Of a stretch of DNA of 64,000 nucleotides, positions 28,976-39,936 are shown in pieces. Under the pieces are notes generated by a model. The model was not told the origin of the DNA. It did not search any database and was given only the letters and a program-made list of their open reading frames with translations. This DNA is from Phycisphaeraceae bacterium. GTDB taxonomy: Bacteria; Planctomycetota; Phycisphaerae; Phycisphaerales; SM1A02. The first letter of the stretch is position 1. Each line of letters opens with the position of its first letter. A program made the translations under genes and the position numbers. The DNA lies in assembly GCA_015709595.1 (NCBI GenBank), contig CP054178.1, positions 2,237,205 through 2,301,204 on the forward strand, read 5' to 3'.

Positions 28976-29698
28976 TCACGCCCGGCGACGCCGCCGCCCG
29001 CCCATCACCAGGCCCGCGCCCAGCAGCGCCAGGGCGCCCGGAGCGGGGACTTCGTTGGCCGTAAGGCGGGTCACGAAGAAGTTGCCCGCGCCGCCCGTGG
29101 TGCCGTTGTAGGTGCCGGTCCACAGGGCGCTGAAGCGGGTGCCGTAGCCCGACGTGGTGGTGCTCAGCGCGTTGAAGCTGGTCGTCGTCGTGTTGCCGGT
29201 CATGCCGGAGTGACGAATCTCGATGGTCAGGTGGCCGCCCGTGTACAGGTACTCGTTGAAGGTGATTTCAACACCCCAGGGGGCCGGTGAGCCGGCGCCT
29301 TGGAACGAGCCGGCCGCGAAGGTGAGCGGGCCGGAACGAACCTGCGTCGGTGCGCTCGTGAAATTGTTGGCGAACGTGGTGCTGCGAGCCGCGGGATCGA
29401 CGCCCGGGCCGATGTAGATGTCGAAATTGGCGAAATCCGCGTTGACGGACGGCGGCCAGTTCGCCGCGTTGGCGTTCAGACGCCACGTCAGTCCCGTCAG
29501 GTTCTTGCCCACGAACTGCGTCAGTTCGCTGGCGTTGATCTGCATCTGGTAGGTGCGGCCCGTCGTCACCATGTACAGGAAACTGGATGTCCCGTTGGTG
29601 TTGGCGTACTCAGCCGGCACCACGCCGTATTCCTGCGCCCACGCCCCCCCCCCCCCAAGCACCGCGGCGGCGGCGCACACGCTCATCACTCTCCTCAT
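28976..29698 (-). CDS. Secreted PEP-CTERM-like protein (2) with G13 tract
   Basis: A 240-residue exported protein. The signal peptide 'MRRVMSVCAAAAVLGGGGAW' contains four glycines encoded by a run of 13 identical bases. The mature part is Thr/Asn/Gly-rich and beta-like. The C-terminal sorting signal is 'EVPAPGALALLGAGLVMGG' plus the basic end 'RRRRRA', the common planctomycete variant of PEP-CTERM. GGAGG before the ATG supports the start at 29698. A well-spaced sigma-70 promoter lies at 29794-29822. A slip in the homopolymer would shift the frame inside the signal peptide, so expression may be phase-variable. Confidence 0.75.
   Translation of the reverse strand: MRRVMSVCAAAAVLGGGGAWAQEYGVVPAEYANTNGTSSFLYMVTTGRTYQMQINASELTQFVGKNLTGLTWRLNANAANWPPSVNADFANFDIYIGPGVDPAARSTTFANNFTSAPTQVRSGPLTFAAGSFQGAGSPAPWGVEITFNEYLYTGGHLTIEIRHSGMTGNTTTTSFNALSTTTSGYGTRFSALWTGTYNGTTGGAGNFFVTRLTANEVPAPGALALLGAGLVMGGRRRRRA
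29644..29656 (+). repeat. Homopolymer run C13 (G13 on the coding strand)
   Basis: Thirteen consecutive C on the plus strand, reading as four Gly codons plus the first base of the next codon in the signal peptide of the PEP-CTERM-like protein 2. It is the longest homopolymer noticed in the window. Runs of this length are prone to slipped-strand length change. Confidence 0.95.
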
Positions 29699-30051
29699 GA
29701 CTTGCTCCTCCGGTTTGAATCCAGTCGAATCGCATGAACCCGAACATCGGGTTCGCGTACCCACATGCCTCTGGTCCCCGGAAGTACATCACCGTTGTAC
29801 CAGAGCCAGACAGGAATGCCAAGCGGTTTTTTGATGTTCGTCGCGAGACCCATCGGCGTGACAGCACGGATGTCAAATTGGGAAGTCCTGGTAAAAATGA
29901 GAACGGGTGCGCGAAAGAACAGGGTGAATCCTTGGTTTTTGGCTCGTCCAGCAGTGGTCGGTTTGATATGGTGGCGTCTTTCCGGGCGTCGAGGCCTGCG
30001 GCGCCGGGACGCAGAGGTCTGGCAGGCCGTCTTTGTCGGGAGAGATGAACC
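29699..30051. other. Divergent intergenic region between two PEP-CTERM-like genes
   Basis: 353 bases. They contain the minus-strand promoter (29794-29822) and a 7-bp inverted repeat CTCTGGT/ACCAGAG at 29769-29805 that overlaps its -10 box. The plus-strand gene start at 30052 must have its promoter here too; a TTGGCT and a TGATAT are visible, but at 19-base spacing, so it is only a candidate. No gene. Confidence 0.5.
29794..29822 (-). promoter_or_regulatory. Sigma-70-type promoter of PEP-CTERM-like protein 2
   Basis: On the minus strand TTGGCA (29822-29817), 17-base spacer, TACAAC (29799-29794), about 96 bases upstream of the ATG. Matches are 5/6 and 4/6. The -10 box overlaps the inverted repeat CTCTGGT/ACCAGAG. 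Confidence 0.55.
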
Positions 30052-30945
30052 ATGATTCGATCCACCATTCTGGCGGCTGCGGTCGCCGCGGGTCTGGCGG
30101 CTTCGTCGTCCAGCGCCCAGTACGTGATGATGCCGGACTCGACCAACAACCGCCTGGTCCTGTTCGACCCGCAGACCGGCGCGCTGGTGAACAGCAACTA
30201 CTTCGCCCTGCAGTCCGGCGTCACGCCCATCCATGCCATGCAGGTGGGGCAGGAAATCTGGATCTCCGAGCAGGTCGGCGACAAGCTGGCCCGTTTCGAC
30301 CTGGTCGGCAACTCACTGGGCGCGGTGACCGGCGGCATGGACAACATCCGCGGCATGGGCCTGGTGAACGGACGGGTCTACGTGACCAACGCCGGCACCG
30401 CCAATGGCGCGCCGGGCGCGGCGGTCATCATGTTCGATACCGCGGGCAACAACCTGGGCTTCTTCGCCACGCCCAATGCGCCCAGCCCCTTCGGCATCCT
30501 CAATCACCAGGGCGGCATCCTGGTCTCGTCCAGCAGCGCCAACGACGACATCCACCGCTACAGCATCTCCGGCGTGTCCCAGGGCACGTTCCACAACTCC
30601 ACCTCGCTCAACTTCGCCGAGCAGATGGATCACGATCACAGCGGCAACGTGCTGGTGGCTGGGTTCTCCTCGCCCGCCGGCATCTACACGCTCGACGCCA
30701 ACACCGGCGCCATTCTCAGCTCCTTCACCGCGTCGGGAGCGCGCGGCGTGTTCCAACTGGGCAACGGCAACATCCTCTGGAGCAACAGCGCCGGCGCCCA
30801 CGTCTACGACGTGAACACCCAGATCAGCACCCAGGTCTACGCCGGCGGCGGGCGCTACTTTGACCTGCTCGTCATCCCCGCGCCCGGTGCGGCGGCCCTG
30901 CTCGGCCTGGGCGCCCTGGTCGGCGGTCGGCGACGAAGACGCTGA
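30052..30945 (+). CDS. Secreted PEP-CTERM-like protein (3), propeller-like
   Basis: A 297-residue exported protein with a clear signal peptide ('STILAAAVAAGLAASSSSAQ'). The body has repeated strands such as 'STNNRLVLFDPQTGALVN', 'GDKLARFDLVGNSLGAVTGG' and 'GIYTLDANTGAILSSF', which recall beta-propeller (NHL/SMP-30-like) blades. The C-terminal sorting signal is 'VIPAPGAAALLGLGALVGG' plus RRRRR. It is probably anchored at or released from the cell surface after exosortase-type cleavage (inferred). The ATG is preceded by GGGAGAGA. An intrinsic terminator follows 29 bases after the stop. Confidence 0.75.
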   Translation: MIRSTILAAAVAAGLAASSSSAQYVMMPDSTNNRLVLFDPQTGALVNSNYFALQSGVTPIHAMQVGQEIWISEQVGDKLARFDLVGNSLGAVTGGMDNIRGMGLVNGRVYVTNAGTANGAPGAAVIMFDTAGNNLGFFATPNAPSPFGILNHQGGILVSSSSANDDIHRYSISGVSQGTFHNSTSLNFAEQMDHDHSGNVLVAGFSSPAGIYTLDANTGAILSSFTASGARGVFQLGNGNILWSNSAGAHVYDVNTQISTQVYAGGGRYFDLLVIPAPGAAALLGLGALVGGRRRRR

Positions 30946-30973
30946 ATCACGCGACGCCAACAAGAACCCCTGT

Positions 30974-31002
30974 GCCCCGACCTTGCGTCGGGGCTTTTCT
31001 TT
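30974..31002 (+). terminator. Intrinsic terminator after PEP-CTERM-like protein 3
   Basis: GCCCCGAC-CTTGC-GTCGGGGC, 8-bp stem and 5-base loop, followed by TTTTCTTT. Confidence 0.9.
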
Positions 31003-31069
31003 GAATGGAGTCGGATCACCGATCCGGGCAAGAAGCGAGCGAGGACGACACGTCCGCGCCCAAGGTTCA

Positions 31070-31768
31070 TCATCGCTCGCGTTTCACTTCGACGCCCTGC
31101 ACGCCGTCCAGCGCGTGGAGTGAGGCGAGCAGCGCTCCCGCCGCGGCTTCATCCGGCAGACGGACCACCCACGTGGTTTCCACCGACGCGCCCTGACGGG
31201 TGGTGCCGATCGACTCCATGCGGAGGGCCTCATCGTGTCGGGAGATCACTTGGCGCAGCACGGCGTCGGTCACCAGTCCGGCGCCGGTGCGCACCGTGAC
31301 GCGGAAGGGGATTCCCATGCCGTTCGGGCCGGGTCGGCGGGCCTCGCGATCCGCTTCGCGCGGGCGGAAGAGGTACGCCGCCGCGCCAGCCACGGGAATC
31401 GCCATGAGCGGAATCATCAGGAACCCCGCCCCCAGCGCCATGCCCACCGCGACGGCGAAGATGACGAAGGCCACGTCGCGCGTGTCCTCCACCACGGTGC
31501 GGAAGCGCACGATCGCCAGCGCGCCCACCAGCGAGAACGCCCGCGCCACGTTGTTGCCGATCACCAGCGTCATCATGGCGATCAGCACCGTCAGCAGCAC
31601 CAGCGTGGCCATCATCTGGCGCGACTGCTCATCGGGCCTGCCGTGCGTGAAGCGGAATACGCCCGCCACGACCATGCCCAGCACCAGCGCGCAGCCCAGA
31701 CGCACCGCCACGACATGGACGGTCAGATCGGGGTCGCCCTGAAACGGGGAGTGCAGCCACTCAGGCAC
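31070..31768 (-). CDS. DUF4956 membrane protein
   Basis: A 232-residue membrane protein with about four hydrophobic segments in the first 130 residues and a soluble C-terminus. The segment 'GNNVARAFSLVGALAIVRFR' with the following 'DTRDVAFVIFAVAVGMALGA' is the signature of the DUF4956 family. The C-terminal 75 residues resemble a small alpha/beta regulatory fold ('SVETTWVVRLPDEAAAGALL'). The GTG start at 31768 overlaps the stop of the VTC-domain gene by 8 bases and has GAGGTGG just upstream, so the two are translationally coupled. DUF4956 proteins often lie beside VTC-domain polyphosphate polymerases; their role is unknown, possibly a membrane channel or anchor for the polymerase (inference). 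Confidence 0.82.
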   Translation of the reverse strand: MPEWLHSPFQGDPDLTVHVVAVRLGCALVLGMVVAGVFRFTHGRPDEQSRQMMATLVLLTVLIAMMTLVIGNNVARAFSLVGALAIVRFRTVVEDTRDVAFVIFAVAVGMALGAGFLMIPLMAIPVAGAAAYLFRPREADREARRPGPNGMGIPFRVTVRTGAGLVTDAVLRQVISRHDEALRMESIGTTRQGASVETTWVVRLPDEAAAGALLASLHALDGVQGVEVKRER

Positions 31769-32663
31769 GGACCACCTCGGACGCGGAGGTCGCCGCGCCC
31801 CAGGCATCGCGGCACAACCGGTACTTCGATACGGGGGTCGGACTCAGCCGAAACCTCGTGAGCGCTTCGCGGAACAGGTGAGGAACCGCGTCAAGGAACT
31901 TCATCTCCACGATGACCCGACCCTGCAACAGCGGACGAACGACGACGGTGCCGTCAGTGCCTCCGGCGGCGCAGGCGTCCGCGCCGGCCCTCACCATCGA
32001 CGGGACTGGCGTCTGCCCCGCCTGATCGCTCAGCAACCATCCGCTCGCCGGCGTTCCTCGCATGTCCCGATCAAACGTGAGCCGCACCGGTGCCTCGTTC
32101 ACCGAGGCGAAGAAGGCCGTTCGCTCATAGGCGATGCCGCACGCGGGCAGCAGCCCCCGGGTCGCGGTCTGTCGCCGGAACCACTCGCCCGCCCACTCGG
32201 CCGCGGCGTGACCATTGGAAGCCGCTCCGTTCAACTGGGCGGCCGGGTCAAGTCGGTTGATCAGCGTCGGCTGCGCCAGGCGGGCCAGTTCCTCAAGCGG
32301 CACGCTCGTGCGTCGTTTCGACACGCGGTCGCCGCGCCGCGACTTGCGCTCGAGAAACACCCAGGGCAACGCGCCGTAGCGGCGGACTCGGTACTTTCGC
32401 CTGGTGTATCCCGGCGTGCGGCGATACACGTCCATCGCGGGCGTATCGAGGTAGAGCGACGCGATGTGGTACGCGCCGTCGAGCGCCGCGTCGCCGTGCG
32501 GGTCGAGCGTCAGACGTTCGCGCGCCCACATCCGCAGCTCGGCGGCGCGCGTCTCGTCCAGCAGGAACTTCATCTCGAAGGCCTGGCGGGCGGGATCGCG
32601 CCGCGCAATGAGGGATGGTGAATCGCTGGCCGATGGCTGGCCGCTCAAGCCGGGTGTCGTCAC
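31761..32663 (-). CDS. VTC-domain (polyphosphate polymerase-like) protein
   Basis: A 300-residue soluble protein matching the VTC/CYTH-like tunnel fold: 'FEMKFLLDETRAAELRMWAR' at the start, 'YHIASLYLDTPAMDVYRR' near 65, basic strand 'YTRRKYRVRRYG' near 86, 'WVFLERKSRRGDRVSKRR' near 100, 'RLTFDRDMRG' near 200, 'VIVEMKFLDAVPHLFREALT' near 255 and 'SKYRLC' near the end. In yeast VTC4 the basic and acidic tunnel residues polymerise ATP phosphate into polyphosphate. Activity here is inferred. GTG at 32663 has AGGAGCAATGAG upstream, and the CotH stop lies one base before it. It is the middle gene of a three-gene operon. Confidence 0.85.
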   Translation of the reverse strand: MTTPGLSGQPSASDSPSLIARRDPARQAFEMKFLLDETRAAELRMWARERLTLDPHGDAALDGAYHIASLYLDTPAMDVYRRTPGYTRRKYRVRRYGALPWVFLERKSRRGDRVSKRRTSVPLEELARLAQPTLINRLDPAAQLNGAASNGHAAAEWAGEWFRRQTATRGLLPACGIAYERTAFFASVNEAPVRLTFDRDMRGTPASGWLLSDQAGQTPVPSMVRAGADACAAGGTDGTVVVRPLLQGRVIVEMKFLDAVPHLFREALTRFRLSPTPVSKYRLCRDAWGAATSASEVVRA

Positions 32664-32664
32664 C

Positions 32665-34635
32665 TCATTGCTCCTGGGCCGGTGCGATGGGGTCGGTCGC
32701 GGGCTGGTTCAGCGCGGGATGATTGAGCAGGAAGCGCCGGCGCTGCTCGAAGAACAGCCGCAGCGTCATCCCGCCGCCCGGCGCTGCACCGGGGCCGGCG
32801 GGCGGCGCGTCGGCCTCGCCCGCGCCTCCGCCTGGCTGGGGCATGGGCGGCAGTTGATCCGACGTGACGCGTCGGAACTGCTCGAGCGAGGAGAGTTTCT
32901 TCGTGTCCTCCGCGATGGCCTGCTCGATGAGCGTCCGCTGCCGCGCGATGAACGGGCCGATGACGCTCCAATCCAGCGACTTCTCCGCCAGCGTGCGCAC
33001 GTTGTCGAGGTATTTCGCCCGCAGCGACGGTACGGCGAGCAGGCGGCTGCGCAGGGGTTTGCGGAGATCATCCATGCCGATCAACGGGTCGAGGTTGACA
33101 CCCCCGCCTCGCTGCCCGCGCTGAACGCCCCCCGGATTCCCCGGCCCGCCCGGCGCCGCGCCGCCGGGCGGGAGTTGCCCTCCGGGAGGCGCGCCGGTCC
33201 CGCCAGGAGGCGGTTGCGGTGGACGATCCTGACCCTGTCCACCGATGCCCGCGCCTCCGGGTCCGATGGGTACGGGTCCGCCGCCGCCCGCGCCGGGGGG
33301 GGCGCCTGGTCCGCCTCGTCCACCGCCACCGGGGGGAGCGCCGCCCGGGAATCCGCCGCCGCCCAGTGCGAACGACTCGTTCATGTCATGCGGGATGAGG
33401 TGGAACATGCCCTTCTCATCCTTGTAGAGGTTGTAATCACTGGCCCGCACCCAGTAGCCGTCGCTGTTCACCAGCACGTTGTCCAGCGCCAGGAACCAGA
33501 GAGCGCCGTCGATGTCGAGGATCGGCCTGAGCGCTTCTTCCAGATGCTCCGTCGGCGTGGTGCTCAGGACGCGGCAGAGGTTGACCAGATCACGCCAGTC
33601 CTTCTCGTCATCCTTGGACTTGATCTGGTAGCGGCGGCGGTACTCGGCCAGATCATCGCCCACGTAATCCAGACCCGACTGGCCGTTGGGGCTGCCGCTC
33701 ACCTTCCACCGCGCCCCCTTGCCCCCGTCGAAGTGTTCGGCGACGAAGTCCCGGTTGAACTGCTCCACGCTCACGTACACGCCCCACGACTCGCCGTTGA
33801 CCACCACGCGCACCAGGTTGGCGCGCGGCGCGGCGATGTGCTCCCGCGCCATGTTGGAATACAGAATCGTGCTGAGGAACGACGGATCGCCGTTGGAGTT
33901 GAGCAGGTTCAGCGTCTTGTGCCCGTACAAGCGCTGCTGGGGATTCACAAGGTCAAGCGACACGTTGAACGATCGCTTGTGCCCGGCGGGAATCATGAAG
34001 TACGACGATGCGCCGCGAAAGCTCACGCCGACCTGCGGATAGGTTTCGCCGTCCACGGTCAGCGTGGCGGGCACTTCGACGTCGGTGTTGTAGAAGTCGG
34101 CCAGCTCGGCTTCCCACTCCGCGCTCTCGAAGTCGATGAAGATGGTCCGCAGAATGGTCTGGTCGTAGAGCGGGGCATCGGGATGGTTGGTCACGTCGGC
34201 GGGCGTCACGCGCGGGCCCGGCGCGGCCGGCTCGCGCTGCGGCCTGGCCCGCCCCCCCGGACCTGCCCCCGGACCACCCCCCGGACCTGCCCCCGGACCT
34301 CGCTGATTGCCGGGATTCTGCCTGAGGAACTCCCGCGCGGCGGCTCGTTCTTCGGCATTGAGCCAGCCATCGCCGCTCACATCGAACTGCTTGACGAGTT
34401 GGCGTTCCACGCCCCCCGGACCACCCGGCCCCCCCGGCATGCCCATGCCTCCCGGCCCTCCGGGTCCGCTGGGGGGTCGCAGCACGTCCTGCCCGCCTCC
34501 AGGCCGCCCCCCCGCGCCTCCGGGTGGGGGCGGGGGCTCCTGAGCGGCCAAGGCCGGAATCGTCAGTCCAGCCGCGAGGGGAAAGCAGACCAGGGGATGA
34601 GACAGGCGACGCCAACCGAACGAGCGAAGGGGCAT
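32665..34635 (-). CDS. CotH-family kinase-like exported protein with EF-hand
   Basis: A 656-residue protein with a signal peptide (to about residue 32), a Pro/Gly-rich linker, an EF-hand loop 'DVSGDGWLNAEE' near residue 86, a second Gly-rich linker, then a CotH domain. CotH proteins are atypical protein kinases of spore coats. Conserved CotH stretches include 'GVSFRGASSYFMIPAGHKRS', 'YGHKTLNLLNSNGDPSFLS', 'NVLVNSDGYWVRASDYNLYK' and 'FHLIPHDMNESFALGGG' (metal-binding Asp). A roughly 110-residue Gly/Pro tract interrupts the domain just after this motif. AAGGA precedes the ATG. It is the first gene of the CotH-VTC-DUF4956 operon; export places it in the periplasm or at the surface. Confidence 0.85.
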   Translation of the reverse strand: MPLRSFGWRRLSHPLVCFPLAAGLTIPALAAQEPPPPPGGAGGRPGGGQDVLRPPSGPGGPGGMGMPGGPGGPGGVERQLVKQFDVSGDGWLNAEERAAAREFLRQNPGNQRGPGAGPGGGPGAGPGGRARPQREPAAPGPRVTPADVTNHPDAPLYDQTILRTIFIDFESAEWEAELADFYNTDVEVPATLTVDGETYPQVGVSFRGASSYFMIPAGHKRSFNVSLDLVNPQQRLYGHKTLNLLNSNGDPSFLSTILYSNMAREHIAAPRANLVRVVVNGESWGVYVSVEQFNRDFVAEHFDGGKGARWKVSGSPNGQSGLDYVGDDLAEYRRRYQIKSKDDEKDWRDLVNLCRVLSTTPTEHLEEALRPILDIDGALWFLALDNVLVNSDGYWVRASDYNLYKDEKGMFHLIPHDMNESFALGGGGFPGGAPPGGGGRGGPGAPPGAGGGGPVPIGPGGAGIGGQGQDRPPQPPPGGTGAPPGGQLPPGGAAPGGPGNPGGVQRGQRGGGVNLDPLIGMDDLRKPLRSRLLAVPSLRAKYLDNVRTLAEKSLDWSVIGPFIARQRTLIEQAIAEDTKKLSSLEQFRRVTSDQLPPMPQPGGGAGEADAPPAGPGAAPGGGMTLRLFFEQRRRFLLNHPALNQPATDPIAPAQEQ

Positions 34636-34776
34636 GGGGAATCCTTCACGGGTCGTGAATCGATCCTGAACAGCCGCACAACAACGGATAGGTACGGGAC
34701 CGTATTGCCCCGCGCCCCCGGAGATGACAGCGGCTGCGGTTGGTGGACAGGCCGGTTCTGCATCGGTTGGTGGCTC

Positions 34777-34805
34777 TTGGCTCGTGGCTGATAGCCGAGA
34801 GCCAA
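34777..34805 (-). repeat. Hairpin formed by heptamer-like repeat
   Basis: TTGGCTC-GT-GGCT-GAT-AGCC-GA-GAGCCAA forms a 7-bp plus 4-bp stem. It sits in a stretch of GGCTNNT-like words (34764-34830) 31 bases beyond the stop of the minus-strand DUF6958-like gene. It could act as a terminator or belong to a degenerate heptamer repeat. Confidence 0.5.
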
Positions 34806-34836
34806 CAGCCGATCGCCGATCGCCATCGGCCCCTTC

Positions 34837-35160
34837 CTACCCCTTCCTCAGCCGCTGCGGCTTCGACCCCTCGATCCGCGCGATCTCGCCCTTCGCCTCC
34901 AGGTCCAGTTTCACCGTCGTCACGTACCACGACACCGAGCCGGACCAGTCCCGCGGCAGGTGGGGCTTGACGGCCCGCACCAGGTCGCGGAAGGCGATGC
35001 CCTCCTTTGAGCGCGGCATGGCCTTGAGAATGGCGGTGCGCATCGCCTCGTACTTGCGGTCATTGATGCGCGTGCCGCCCTGGCCCTTGGGGTAGTTGAT
35101 GTTTTCGGTGAGGATGGTGGTGGAGGCGGGACGACGTGAACGCGCCTTCTTCTTCGCCAT
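34837..35160 (-). CDS. Small DUF6958-like protein
   Basis: A 107-residue basic protein, 'MAKKKARSRRPASTTILTEN' at the start, then 'INDRKYEAMRTAILKAMP', 'GIAFRDLVRAVKPHLPRD' and 'SVSWYVTTVKLDLEAKGEIA'. This resembles the DUF6958 family, whose last part looks like a winged-helix (reads as LDLEAKG). It may bind nucleic acid (inferred from the basic N-terminus). The ATG at 35160 is preferred because the residues upstream in the frame are not similar. It is divergent from mdh. The family assignment is from memory and should be treated as tentative. Confidence 0.6.
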   Translation of the reverse strand: MAKKKARSRRPASTTILTENINYPKGQGGTRINDRKYEAMRTAILKAMPRSKEGIAFRDLVRAVKPHLPRDWSGSVSWYVTTVKLDLEAKGEIARIEGSKPQRLRKG

Positions 35161-35195
35161 GACGCCGCGTGCCTCGAAAGAGGGAATGGTGCTCG

Positions 35196-35223
35196 TTGCC
35201 CGGATTCGGGCCACTTCTATCAT
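35196..35223 (+). promoter_or_regulatory. Putative sigma-70 promoter of mdh
   Basis: TTGCCC (4/6) at 35196-35201, 16-base spacer, TATCAT (5/6) at 35218-35223, 78 bases before the ATG. The spacer includes the inverted repeat GCCCG-GATT-CGGGC. Confidence 0.45.
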
Positions 35224-35246
35224 CACGACCCTTGCGAGATTCCGCA

Positions 35247-35279
35247 ATGCCCCGCCGCGCCCGATGGCGTCCGGGGCAT
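35247..35279 (+). other. Hairpin in the mdh leader
   Basis: ATGCCCCG and CGGGGCAT form an 8-bp stem; inside, CGCC-CGAT-GGCG can pair to a small inner stem. It ends 21 bases before the mdh ATG and just before the AAAGGA ribosome site. It could affect translation or stability of the transcript. Confidence 0.4.
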
Positions 35280-35300
35280 CCCTGAAAGGACGATGAGGAC

Positions 35301-36299
35301 ATGCGACGAGCGAAGATTTCGGTCATTGGCGCGGGCGGCAACGTCGGAGCGACCGTGGCTCTCTGGTGCGCCATCAAGGAACTGGGCGACATCGTCGCCA
35401 TCGACATCCGCCTTCCCAAGGCAGGCGGGAAAGAAGGTGAAACCTTCCTCCCCGTCGAAGGCCGCATGCTCGACCTGGCCCAGTGCGGCCCGCTGGAGCG
35501 TTTCGACTCATCCATCACCGCCACCGATGACTACGCCGCCATCACCGGCAGCGACGTGGTGGTGGTCACCGCAGGTCTGCCGCGCAAGCCGGGTATGAGC
35601 CGCGACGACCTGATTCAGACCAACGTCAAGATCGTCAAGCAGGTGGCGGAGAACGTGGCGAAGAACGCGCCCGAGGCGGTGATGATCATCGTCTCCAACC
35701 CGCTGGACGCCATGGTCTACACCGCGTGGAAGGCGAGCAGGTTCCCCACGCATCGCATCCTCGGCCAGGCAGGCGCGCTGGATGTGGCCCGCTTCAAGAC
35801 GTTCATCGCCATGGAGACCGGCTTCAGCGTCGAGGACATCAACGCCCTGCTGCTGGGCGGGCACGGCGACGACATGGTCCCGCTGCCCCGCTACACCAAC
35901 ATCGCGGGCATCCCCGTCACGCAGTTCATCAGCGAAGCGCGGCTGGCGGAACTGGTGCAGCGGGCCAAGGTGGGCGGCGGCGAGATCGTCAACAAGATGG
36001 GCACCAGCGCCTACTACGCCCCGGCCCTGGGCACCACCGACATGGTGGAGGCCATCATCAAGGACAAGAAGCGCATCATCCCCTGCGCCGCCTACTGCGA
36101 GAACGAGTATGGCGTCGCGCCCGGCCAGAAGGGCCAGGGCTACTTCGTCGGCGTGCCGGTGGTGCTGGGAACGCGCGGCGTGGAGAAGGTCATCGAGATT
36201 CCGCTCGACGGCGCCGAGCGGAAACTGATGGATGAGTCCATCAGCCACGTGAAGGATCTGGTGAAGGTGGTGCGCGGGCTGTTCCCCGAGCTGGGGTGA
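35301..36299 (+). CDS. mdh: Malate dehydrogenase
   Basis: NAD-dependent (S)-malate dehydrogenase of the LDH-like type, interconverting malate and oxaloacetate in the TCA cycle. 332 residues. The Rossmann start is 'ISVIGAGGNVGATVALW'. The substrate loop 'AGLPRKPGMSRDDLIQTN' has Arg at the position that selects malate over lactate. 'MIIVSNPLDAMVYTAWKAS' and the catalytic His in 'LLGGHGDDMVPLPRYTNIAG' follow. A putative promoter and leader hairpin precede it; a weak hairpin CGTTCGT/ACGAACG at 36359-36378 follows. It is transcribed away from the DUF6958-like gene. Confidence 0.95.
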   Translation: MRRAKISVIGAGGNVGATVALWCAIKELGDIVAIDIRLPKAGGKEGETFLPVEGRMLDLAQCGPLERFDSSITATDDYAAITGSDVVVVTAGLPRKPGMSRDDLIQTNVKIVKQVAENVAKNAPEAVMIIVSNPLDAMVYTAWKASRFPTHRILGQAGALDVARFKTFIAMETGFSVEDINALLLGGHGDDMVPLPRYTNIAGIPVTQFISEARLAELVQRAKVGGGEIVNKMGTSAYYAPALGTTDMVEAIIKDKKRIIPCAAYCENEYGVAPGQKGQGYFVGVPVVLGTRGVEKVIEIPLDGAERKLMDESISHVKDLVKVVRGLFPELG

Positions 36300-37992: not shown

Positions 37993-38331
37993 GCCCAAGT
38001 GTACCGCTGCCGACGCCCACGACGGCGCGGTTCACCGATCCACTACCATGATCTGATCCAGTCGCTTGCGGCGGATGTCCGGCGCCACGCAGTCCGCCGC
38101 GTGACGACGTGAACCGGGGGAGCCGCTGTGATGCGGGTGAACGTGCGGAAGGGTGCGAGCGGTCATTCGAGCCATCGTTCGAATCACTCGGCACTGGGTA
38201 TCACGGCGCACCGAAGGGTGTCCGCTCGCACACGGCGTGGCCCTGCACCCGATCCATCCGCGCCTGGCGGGTTGGCATGGTTGTTGTGGCACGTCCAGAG
38301 CCGGGCCTGTCCGCAAAGAAGGAGTGTGGCC
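37993..38331. other. Divergent intergenic region before FG-GAP gene
   Basis: 339 bases. It contains an inverted repeat ATTCGA/TCGAAT at 38165-38184, which could be an operator, and the AAGGAG ribosome site of the next gene at 38318-38323. The frame before 38332 is open, but its residues do not resemble the FG-GAP protein. No clear promoter. Confidence 0.35.
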
Positions 38332-39936
38332 ATGTGCGTGCGACTCGTTCAAACCAATGACGTTTCTTTCCTGCTCGCGGGTGTGATCGGCCTCGTCCTC
38401 TCCGGCGGCGCGGCAGCGCTGCCCGGCGGCGACTTCAACGGCGACGGGTTTGACGACCTGGCGATTGGCGTGCCTGACGAAGATGTGGGACTGAGGGTGG
38501 ATGCGGGGGCCGTGCATGTTCTGTACGGTTCGGTTGGCGGACTGCGCGCCACGATCGCGTCGGGCGCGCCCATCGATGCGCGGCTGTTCACCGAGTCCGC
38601 CACGTGGTGGGCCGGGGTGTCGCCGCAGGCGGGTTCGAGGTTCGGCGAGGCGCTCGCCATCGGCGACTTCAACGATGACGGATTCGATGACCTGGCGATC
38701 AGCGCGCCGGGGCGCGACATCGTCGCCGTCGCGGACGCCGGTCGGGTGTACGTTGTCTACGGCGGGCACGCGGGTCTGGGGTCGGGTGGATCGTGGATCA
38801 TCAGCGAGGCAAGCTACGCCCGTGCGGTCGGCGCCGGCGACCGATTCGGGCTCTCTCTTGCCAGCGGTGATTTCGATGGCGATGGCGCCGACGACCTGGT
38901 GATCGGCGCGCCGCTGGACGACCTTGATGCGGCGGATGCCGGCGTGGCGTGGCTGGCGTATGGAGCACCGGGCGGGCTCATGCTCATCCCGCGCCGCGCG
39001 CCGCTTCATCTGGTCCACTGGGGGATGACGCCGGGGCCGGGTGACATGTTCGGCTGGTCGCTGGCGGTGGGGAACTTCGACAGCGACGGGTACGACGACC
39101 TGATCGTCGGTGCGCCCGGCTTCGATCGCCTCGGCGTGGTCAATTGCGGTCAGGCCTTCGCCTTTCACGGCGGGCCGCGCGGCACGGAGTTCGGCGGCAT
39201 CGTGCTCCTCACGCAGTCCATCTTTCCGGGCGGCGACGTGGAGGAGGTCGGCGATCAACTGGGTTGGTCCGTGGCCGCGGGCGATTTCGACGGCAACTGG
39301 GCCGACGACGTGGCCATCGGCGCACCCCTTGAGGATCTCGGCGGAATCATGAACGCGGGGTCAGTGTTCGTGACCGGCGGAATACCGGGTGCGGGATTGA
39401 CCTTCGGCTGGCACCCGGATCAGAGCTTCGAGCAGGATCGCTTCGGGCTGGATGGAAATGAGCCCGATGACCAGTACGGCGTGGCGGTGATCACGGGCGA
39501 CTGGAACGGCGACGGCTGTGATGACCTGGTCATCGGCATGCCCGAGCAGTCAATCGGCGCCGCGGTCTCCGCGGGCGTGATCCACGTGCTGCCCGGCGAT
39601 CTTGGCTTCGGGCCGGGCTTGGGCGCGTTCCCCGCGTTCCGGTGGCATCAGAACACCACGGGAGTGCTGGATGTTGCGGAGTCGGATGACCGGTTCGGCG
39701 CCGCACTGGGCAAGGGGGACTACAACGGCGACGGGTTCGACGACCTGGTGGTGGGCGTCCCGGGCGAGGATGTGGGAGGCGTGGCCGATTGCGGCTGCGT
39801 GCAGGTGTTCTATGGGTCCGCGGCGGGCCTGAGCGCTGCGGCCGATCAGGTCTGGCATCAGGGCAGCAGGGGCGTGCGAGACGCCAACGAAGCGGGCGAC
39901 GCCTTCGGATCGGTCATCGGTTTCAAGCGCTGGTAA
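38332..39936 (+). CDS. Exported seven-repeat FG-GAP (integrin-like) protein
   Basis: A 534-residue exported protein. The N-terminal hydrophobic segment 'SFLLAGVIGLVLSGGAAALP' is a signal peptide. Seven copies of the FG-GAP/integrin-alpha repeat follow, each with a Ca2+-binding loop of the type DFNGDGFDDL and ending in 'IGxP': DFNGDGFDDL, DFNDDGFDDL, DFDGDGADDL, NFDSDGYDDL, DFDGNWADDV, DWNGDGCDDL and DYNGDGFDDL. Seven repeats are the number for a complete beta-propeller. Such proteins are typically adhesive or extracellular. The start at 38332 is set by AAGAAGGAG upstream and the signal peptide. Confidence 0.88.
   Translation: MCVRLVQTNDVSFLLAGVIGLVLSGGAAALPGGDFNGDGFDDLAIGVPDEDVGLRVDAGAVHVLYGSVGGLRATIASGAPIDARLFTESATWWAGVSPQAGSRFGEALAIGDFNDDGFDDLAISAPGRDIVAVADAGRVYVVYGGHAGLGSGGSWIISEASYARAVGAGDRFGLSLASGDFDGDGADDLVIGAPLDDLDAADAGVAWLAYGAPGGLMLIPRRAPLHLVHWGMTPGPGDMFGWSLAVGNFDSDGYDDLIVGAPGFDRLGVVNCGQAFAFHGGPRGTEFGGIVLLTQSIFPGGDVEEVGDQLGWSVAAGDFDGNWADDVAIGAPLEDLGGIMNAGSVFVTGGIPGAGLTFGWHPDQSFEQDRFGLDGNEPDDQYGVAVITGDWNGDGCDDLVIGMPEQSIGAAVSAGVIHVLPGDLGFGPGLGAFPAFRWHQNTTGVLDVAESDDRFGAALGKGDYNGDGFDDLVVGVPGEDVGGVADCGCVQVFYGSAAGLSAAADQVWHQGSRGVRDANEAGDAFGSVIGFKRW

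Follow-up and report, generated by a model that had tools for sequence, protein, structure and literature searches.

Organization of the locus

The window analysed here is a 64,000-nucleotide stretch of the genome of a Phycisphaeraceae bacterium (contig CP054178.1, positions 2,237,205 to 2,301,204 of the forward strand), and the subject of this report is an operon within it that encodes a CotH-family kinase, a VTC-domain protein and a DUF4956 membrane protein. Open reading frames and Pfam matches placed the three genes in tandem on the minus strand at 31070-34635. The CotH gene (32665..34635, ATG start) encodes 656 amino acids, the VTC gene (31761..32663, GTG start) encodes a soluble protein of 300 amino acids that is a candidate polyphosphate polymerase, and the DUF4956 gene (31070..31768) starts at a GTG. 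The tight packing of these genes, described in an earlier reading of the same DNA made from its letters and open reading frames (the sequence-only reading), was confirmed, with a single base between the CotH stop codon and the VTC GTG and an overlap of 8 bases between VTC and DUF4956 if the latter starts at GTG 31768; an in-frame ATG at 31807 provides an alternative DUF4956 start, from which the overlap would be 47 bases. Shine-Dalgarno-like AGGAG and GAGG sequences precede the GTG starts of VTC and DUF4956. The only minus-strand site noted in a scan of 30900-35350 for terminator-like sites falls within CotH. In the source genome, which is a single contig of 3.84 Mb, there was one VTC match and one CotH match, both in the operon.

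Predicted properties of the three proteins

The VTC protein matched PF09359 with E=8e-28 (98 bits against a curated cut-off of 23), which was the only domain found by Pfam at E up to 1, with no SPX domain. The protein, placed in the cytosol in the sequence-only reading, had no hydrophobic segment at the threshold used. With a profile of 27 VTC sequences, E values lay between 5.9e-30 and 6.4e-23 for yeast VTC4 chains and, more weakly, between 6.9e-15 and 1.3e-12 for VTC2 and VTC3, which are presumably non-catalytic. Residue conservation was evident from a second alignment of 27 sequences, which included the window protein and 9 sequences from the wider scan described below. Residues invariant in all 27 included E30, K32, K90, R92, R94, Y96, E105, K107 and K116 as well as R118, R181, R194, D198, E253, K255 and K280. 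In a hand-counted profile alignment, ten of these were identical to the corresponding residues of VTC4, with K32, R92, R94, K107 and K116 matching K200, R264, R266, K281 and K294, and R181, R194, E253, K255 and K280 matching R361, R373, E426, K428 and K458. We take K200, K281, R361 and K458 to be active-site residues of VTC4. Replacement of R264, R266 and E426 in yeast VTC4 gave a catalytically impaired complex (PMC9911596). The tunnel Arg, Lys and Glu residues on which the sequence-only reading depended were thus kept, and a decayed active site was rejected as an explanation because of their retention.

The predicted structure of the VTC protein (predicted local distance difference test score, pLDDT, 79.9) had VTC4 as its top Foldseek match (E=3.8e-14). 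Structural alignment gave a Z score of 18.5 for VTC4 (230 residues, root-mean-square deviation 3.8), 17.9 for VTC3, 17.6 for VTC2 and 13.9 for the top non-VTC chain. As modelled, the fold is that of a triphosphate-tunnel enzyme of the VTC type, as the sequence-only reading had also held, and the protein is probably a maker of polyphosphate.

The DUF4956 protein matched PF16316 with E=1.4e-10 (41.6 bits against a curated cut-off of 30.6). Its model, built with 33 sequences (pLDDT 87.8), contained helices at residues 17-42, 47-70, 74-89, 96-113, 118-133 and 137-144 followed by a C-terminal ACT-like domain; the helices comprise five that look hydrophobic and a short sixth, in place of the four-helix protein previously proposed. 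The sole residues invariant in all 33 aligned members were R88 and R90 (232-residue numbering), which form an R-x-R pair. The channel of yeast VTC is lined by basic residues (PMC9911596), and the arginine pair therefore fits, without proving, a path for a polyanion. That DUF4956 passes polyphosphate across the membrane has about an even chance of being correct. When a second structural aligner was applied to the model, the ACT-like half resembled many unrelated ACT and ferredoxin-like domains, and the membrane half was left without a fold match because the ACT-like half filled the match list. An alignment-based profile search of solved structures with DUF4956 returned only a designed protein (E=0.015). 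In earlier papers, DUF4956 is listed beside DUF2490 in Bacteroides (PMC10434189) and another DUF4956 gene appears in bifidobacteria (PMC6848847).

The CotH protein matched PF08757 with E=1.1e-36 (127.4 bits against a curated cut-off of 23.8) and is probably exported, having a hydrophobic N-terminal segment at residues 15-31. An EF-hand-type loop, DVSGDGWLNAEE, lies at residues 85-96 (34348..34383, minus strand). The exported CotH kinase with an EF-hand of the sequence-only reading is therefore supported as regards the N-terminal segment and the loop motif, whereas Pfam gave no EF-hand match on this protein at E up to 1. Kinase homology extends over residues 204-423 (33367..34026, minus strand), and residues 184-423 align with spore coat protein H (5jd9, E=3.5e-6). 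Residues K220, E291, D392 and D417 are present in this region and match the Lys, Glu, Asp and Asp positions of 5jd9, which we take to be catalytic. Position 400 is Asp as opposed to Asn in 5jd9; among 43 members of the same group, Asn was noted in 25 and Asp in 17. After the motif PHDMNESF, some 90 residues rich in Gly and Pro break the homology (approximately residues 424-512; 33100..33366, minus strand). In L043, L049, L052 and L053, too, a motif of the PHDxNE type leads into a region enriched in Gly, Pro, Gln and Asn, and the search pattern used matched 14 of 50 CotH members. Another CotH branch is represented at L041, L042, L057, L058, L061, L067, L071, L074, L080 and L085 and at many loci of the wider scan; in the 2 of these 10 proteins that were scanned, CotH is joined to a right-handed beta helix.

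Co-occurrence of the three families

The distribution of the three families was determined in a same-phylum draw of 199 genomes, in a second sample of 246 genomes from the phylum of an Actinomycetota record (L169) and in a wider scan of genome contigs with a DUF4956 alignment, from which 80 loci were kept. In the same-phylum draw, VTC was found in 58 genomes (own genome included), DUF4956 in 60 (57 above the cut-off) and CotH in 64. VTC and DUF4956 occurred together in 56 genomes, as opposed to 17.5 expected, all three families occurred in 52, and CotH was present in 53 of the 58 VTC genomes, compared with 18.7 expected. The genes were also close to one another. Thus, DUF4956 lay within 10 kb of VTC for 60 of 74 VTC match rows and within 1 kb for 49, and the 57 DUF4956 loci had VTC nearby in 52 cases, CotH in 43 and the complete trio in 38. 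In the Actinomycetota phylum, VTC and DUF4956 (24 matches above the cut-off) were found in the identical 25 genomes, 18 of which were among the 19 that carried CotH, and DUF4956 lay within 500 bases of 27 of 28 VTC places (two split matches merged). Corresponding p-values for VTC and DUF4956 were 5e-42 in the same-phylum draw and 9e-35 in the Actinomycetota phylum, on the assumption that genomes are independent, which they are not. In the wider scan, VTC was within 6 kb at 70 of the 80 loci and the trio was present at 58; when only loci with 6 kb on either side of DUF4956 were counted, the trio was present at 29 of 30 in the wider scan and 26 of 36 in the same-phylum draw.

Gene order was less constant than adjacency. 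VTC came first in all 86 directly adjacent pairs of the collected loci and DUF4956 came first in some genomes of the Actinomycetota phylum; adjacency therefore outlasts order, since the two genes adjoin in either arrangement. Titles of trio-bearing records included Planctomycetes, Alpha-, Gamma- and Deltaproteobacteria, Bacteriovoracales and Campylobacterales as well as Fermentibacteria, Gemmatimonadota, Actinomycetota and Aminicenantes, and the trio was also present on two annotated Bacillota plasmids. Among near relatives the occurrence of VTC was patchy: besides the source genome, 3 of 12 further genomes from its family had a match, and none of 8 from its order did. Co-occurrence beyond the source genome, as anticipated in the sequence-only reading, was thus found in both phylum samples and in the wider scan, and a chance neighbourhood was rejected on the strength of co-occurrence and adjacency in all three. 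From this genomic evidence it is very likely that VTC and DUF4956 act together. The trio as a whole, judged by comparison of sequences, looks like a real surface machine because its members are found together in many unrelated bacteria. As a separate observation, the trio is present in small genomes (0.7-1.0 Mb) of Pelagibacteraceae at L119, L135 and L147, where DUF4956 is followed in turn by the anchored protein, CotH and VTC.

Export-like and other partner genes

A gene for an HlyD-type adaptor was located directly downstream of DUF4956 in 16 of the 57 same-phylum loci (L038-L040, L045-L048, L062, L063, L068, L073, L076, L083, L086, L088 and L090), which came from 14 genomes with 10 family labels. 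Gaps between the DUF4956 and HlyD profile matches were 3-138 bases, and Pfam confirmed the HlyD identity in both loci scanned. TolC-like genes were found within 8 kb at 4 of the 57 loci. In the wider scan, a porin-like gene stood just before VTC at 18 of 80 loci, all among L133-L158, and overlapped VTC by 1-4 bases in 16 of the 18. Porin_O_P (phosphate-selective porin O/P) matched 4 of the 14 porin-like proteins scanned and BBP2 matched 2, while the family as a whole (A5) matched no solved structure at E up to 0.1. Assignment to a family of porins that takes its name from phosphate is no more than suggestive.

Proteins from three further clusters were encoded at 29 of the 80 wider loci, mostly just before CotH; their starts resemble membrane anchors, and weak TPR matches were seen in a minority of the 23 scanned. 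Loci L035, L036, L044 and L078 encode a protein of about 550 residues directly after VTC, with one to several CotH copies nearby. The protein from L036, the only one scanned, had a thymidylate-kinase-like N-terminus.

Genes flanking the operon

On its upstream side the operon is flanked by a DUF6958 gene and a gene for malate dehydrogenase, and on the other side by genes for a 297-residue protein, a PEP-CTERM-type protein, a NuoI-like protein and RNase E/G. None of 8 neighbouring genes scanned was a polysaccharide gene, and Rfam gave no match in the window. The gene at 28976-29764 (minus strand) encodes a PEP-CTERM-like tail (PEP-CTERM 18.9 bits against a cut-off of 16, with one MYXO-CTERM cut-off also passed), and the protein encoded at 30052-30945 (plus strand) has a PEP-CTERM-like end, although NCBIfam returned nothing for it at E up to 0.01. 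Both lie on the downstream side of the operon and could be surface targets of CotH. Farther away, 38128-39936 (plus strand) encodes a 602-amino-acid protein with repeated GDFNGDGFDDLAIG-like units, FG-GAP-like by eye, for which NCBIfam likewise returned nothing at E up to 0.01.

Proposed function and alternatives

Our tentative interpretation, to which we accord slightly less than an even chance, is that the operon encodes a compact module for a phosphoryl polymer of the envelope, with VTC as the maker of polyphosphate, DUF4956 as its translocator and surface CotH acting outside. Thus, the soluble tunnel enzyme VTC would transfer phosphate from adenosine triphosphate (ATP) to the polymer at the cytosolic face of the membrane, and DUF4956, with its invariant R-x-R and an ACT-like domain that would be cytosolic, would receive the chain and pass it through the inner membrane, serving the detached bacterial VTC domain as VTC membrane domains serve the yeast enzyme. 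In some Gram-negatives, the HlyD/TolC or porin partner would take the chain onward through the outer membrane. CotH, exported via its signal peptide, would act outside on a surface protein or glycan, and the exported chain may be its substrate, scaffold or phosphate donor. We infer both the export and the identity of the phosphate donor. Use of the exported polymer by CotH is an unlikely, minority bet, and its most specific form, in which VTC and DUF4956 are a polyphosphate synthase-translocase and surface CotH kinases take exported polyphosphate as phosphate donor, is less likely again.

The alternative that survives best, although unlikely, is that the trio regulates assembly of a surface polysaccharide or matrix, with CotH phosphorylating surface or synthase proteins at the expense of ATP, VTC and DUF4956 sensing or tuning phosphate or energy state, and no export. 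One study describes the trio beside pelDEADAFG in streptococci, clostridia and bifidobacteria, as accessory genes contiguous with the pel genes of Gram-positives (PMC7112168). A 2025 paper identifies the trio in Streptococcus intermedius as the Gram-positive pel accessory genes cotH-PPP-DUF4956 (SIR_1594-1593-1592), and reports that deletion of CotH or DUF4956 abolished over half of aggregation in one medium and altered the amount of Pel, while the VTC (SIR_1593) deletion mutant still aggregated and made Pel (PMC12345266). The latter result argues against the simplest version of the module and is consistent with a regulatory role. Glycan contexts were also noted on the two plasmids, where the trio stood among glycosyltransferases and pyruvyl transferases (Pseudobutyrivibrio) or near a HEAT protein and a chitin-synthase-like glycosyltransferase (Planococcus), and in the window a PEP-CTERM-type gene is two genes away.

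Regulation of polysaccharide assembly is less easily reconciled with the distribution of PelG, used here as a stand-in for the whole pel locus (PelG being the pel gene searched). PelG was missing from 50 of the 58 VTC genomes, including the source genome, and from all 30 genomes tested from the wider scan. It was found in 8 VTC genomes and lay on the VTC contig in one of these (G188), about 16 kb away; since assemblies are fragmented, PelG and VTC on separate contigs prove little. Dependence on Pel was rejected for the source genome, which gave no PelG match, and Pel appears to be one host context of the trio because PelG is missing in most VTC genomes. The 2025 paper states that its own analyses did not detect the trio outside Pel (PMC12345266), where the present survey did find it. 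The absence of polysaccharide genes among the 8 scanned neighbours of the window operon also counts against this alternative, and a purely regulatory role would leave unexplained both the retained polymerase residues and the HlyD and porin partners.

An inner-membrane pair of VTC and DUF4956 that handles polyphosphate or phosphate and keeps the polymer inside, with CotH merely co-transcribed, has a small chance of being correct. It is favoured by the closer association of VTC with DUF4956 than with CotH (56 as opposed to 53 of the 58 same-phylum VTC genomes, and 25 as opposed to 18 of the 25 in the Actinomycetota phylum) and by 14 control genomes, in which VTC and DUF4956 matched an identical set of three, including one that lacked CotH. 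Among the control genomes, Corynebacterium glutamicum gave matches to all three families. The excess of CotH in VTC genomes (53 against 18.7 expected) is contrary to this explanation, as is the presence of PPK1, the usual enzyme for polyphosphate stores, in 34 of the 58 VTC genomes, the source genome being one of the 34. Since PPK1 is also present, VTC is not the sole candidate polyphosphate maker of the source genome; VTC as a mere replacement for PPK was rejected on the same counts.

Of the 33 DUF4956 members, 10 were matched by Pfam MgtC at E<0.01, with 1.2e-6 as the best value. The top Foldseek match of the DUF4956 model was the MgtC C-terminal domain (2lqj, E=1.3e-3) and not a known channel, which weighs against translocation, although many ACT-like folds had similar scores. 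A DUF4956 that modulates ATP synthase or phosphate uptake in the manner of MgtC, perhaps under the control of the VTC product and without transport, has a smaller chance still. Against it, the window protein scored 14.2 bits with PF02308 (cut-off 31.4), the 50 rows from the second aligner did not include MgtC, the ACT-like half matching many unrelated domains there, and HlyD adjacency would go unexplained.

Other observations also weigh against an envelope phosphoryl-polymer module. With respect to VTC, the invariant E30 and K90 stand opposite T198 and A262 of the yeast protein, and the fold does not single out VTC4, from whose Z score those of the VTC3 and VTC2 chains differ by less than 1. 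As regards association, DUF4956 was near CotH with no VTC match in 4 of 199 genomes (G137, G147, G162 and G194), VTC lacked a DUF4956 match in 2 of 199 (G105 and G117), and the DUF4956 match was only below the Pfam cut-off in 3 of 60 and 1 of 25 genomes. CotH was not found within 8 kb at 14 of 57 same-phylum loci and 20 of 80 wider loci, in part because contigs end there. His often replaces D392 in the beta-helix CotH branch (9 of 10) and in wider relatives (25 of 56), so these proteins may not be ordinary kinases. Finally, the joint export module of the sequence-only reading gains some support from HlyD, TolC-like and porin-like neighbours in certain lineages, but only 2 of the 4 TolC-like genes are in line with the operon, the porin-like gene is confined to Fermentibacteria-type records, HlyD and TolC-like neighbours of DUF4956 were found at none of the 80 wider loci, and the 20 kb at the window operon contained no HlyD or TolC-like match, these being the profiles run there and the porin profile not. 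Our restraint is due mainly to the VTC deletion result, the loci without VTC, the restriction of export partners to certain lineages and the CotH branch that bears His.

A published account assigns polyphosphate synthesis by PPK enzymes to prokaryotes and that by VTC to eukaryotes (PMC12526157). If the proposed module is real, a widespread VTC-type enzyme with its membrane protein and surface kinase would constitute a second, envelope-directed route of bacterial polyphosphate, and polyphosphate as donor would solve the problem of how secreted kinases function where ATP is scarce. The trio as a Pel accessory set is already published; what is added here is its life outside Pel, together with export-like partners. 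The survey thus releases the trio from Pel, the one setting for which mutant data were found, and DUF4956, HlyD and porin are simple partners for direct testing of export.

Comparison with known systems

The operon shares with the Gram-positive pel accessory trio the same three contiguous families and a secreted CotH, and SIR_1592 has membrane segments and an ACT domain like DUF4956 of the window. It differs in that the source genome has no PelG, while other loci vary in gene order and copy number and have added HlyD, porin-like or beta-helix parts. With the eukaryotic VTC complex (yeast Vtc4/Vtc3/Vtc1), the shared features are the tunnel domain, the ten mapped charged residues, the VTC-type fold and a membrane partner genetically tied to the enzyme, whereas the window VTC was found to have neither SPX nor a membrane segment and its membrane partner is DUF4956. 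Spore coat protein H, the CotH kinase of 5jd9/5jda (presumably from Bacillus), shares with the window CotH the alignment over residues 184-423 and the Lys, Glu, Asp and Asp positions; unlike 5jd9, the window protein has an N-terminal hydrophobic segment, an EF-hand-type loop, a Gly/Pro-rich stretch and Asp400. A further likeness, drawn from the published gene table alone, is to NELoc-2 of Clostridium perfringens, for which that table lists VTC, an adjacent membrane-located "tubulin-like" protein and CotH, together with a HEAT-repeat protein and a chitin-synthase-like glycosyltransferase, an arrangement that resembles the Planococcus plasmid (PMC2879425).

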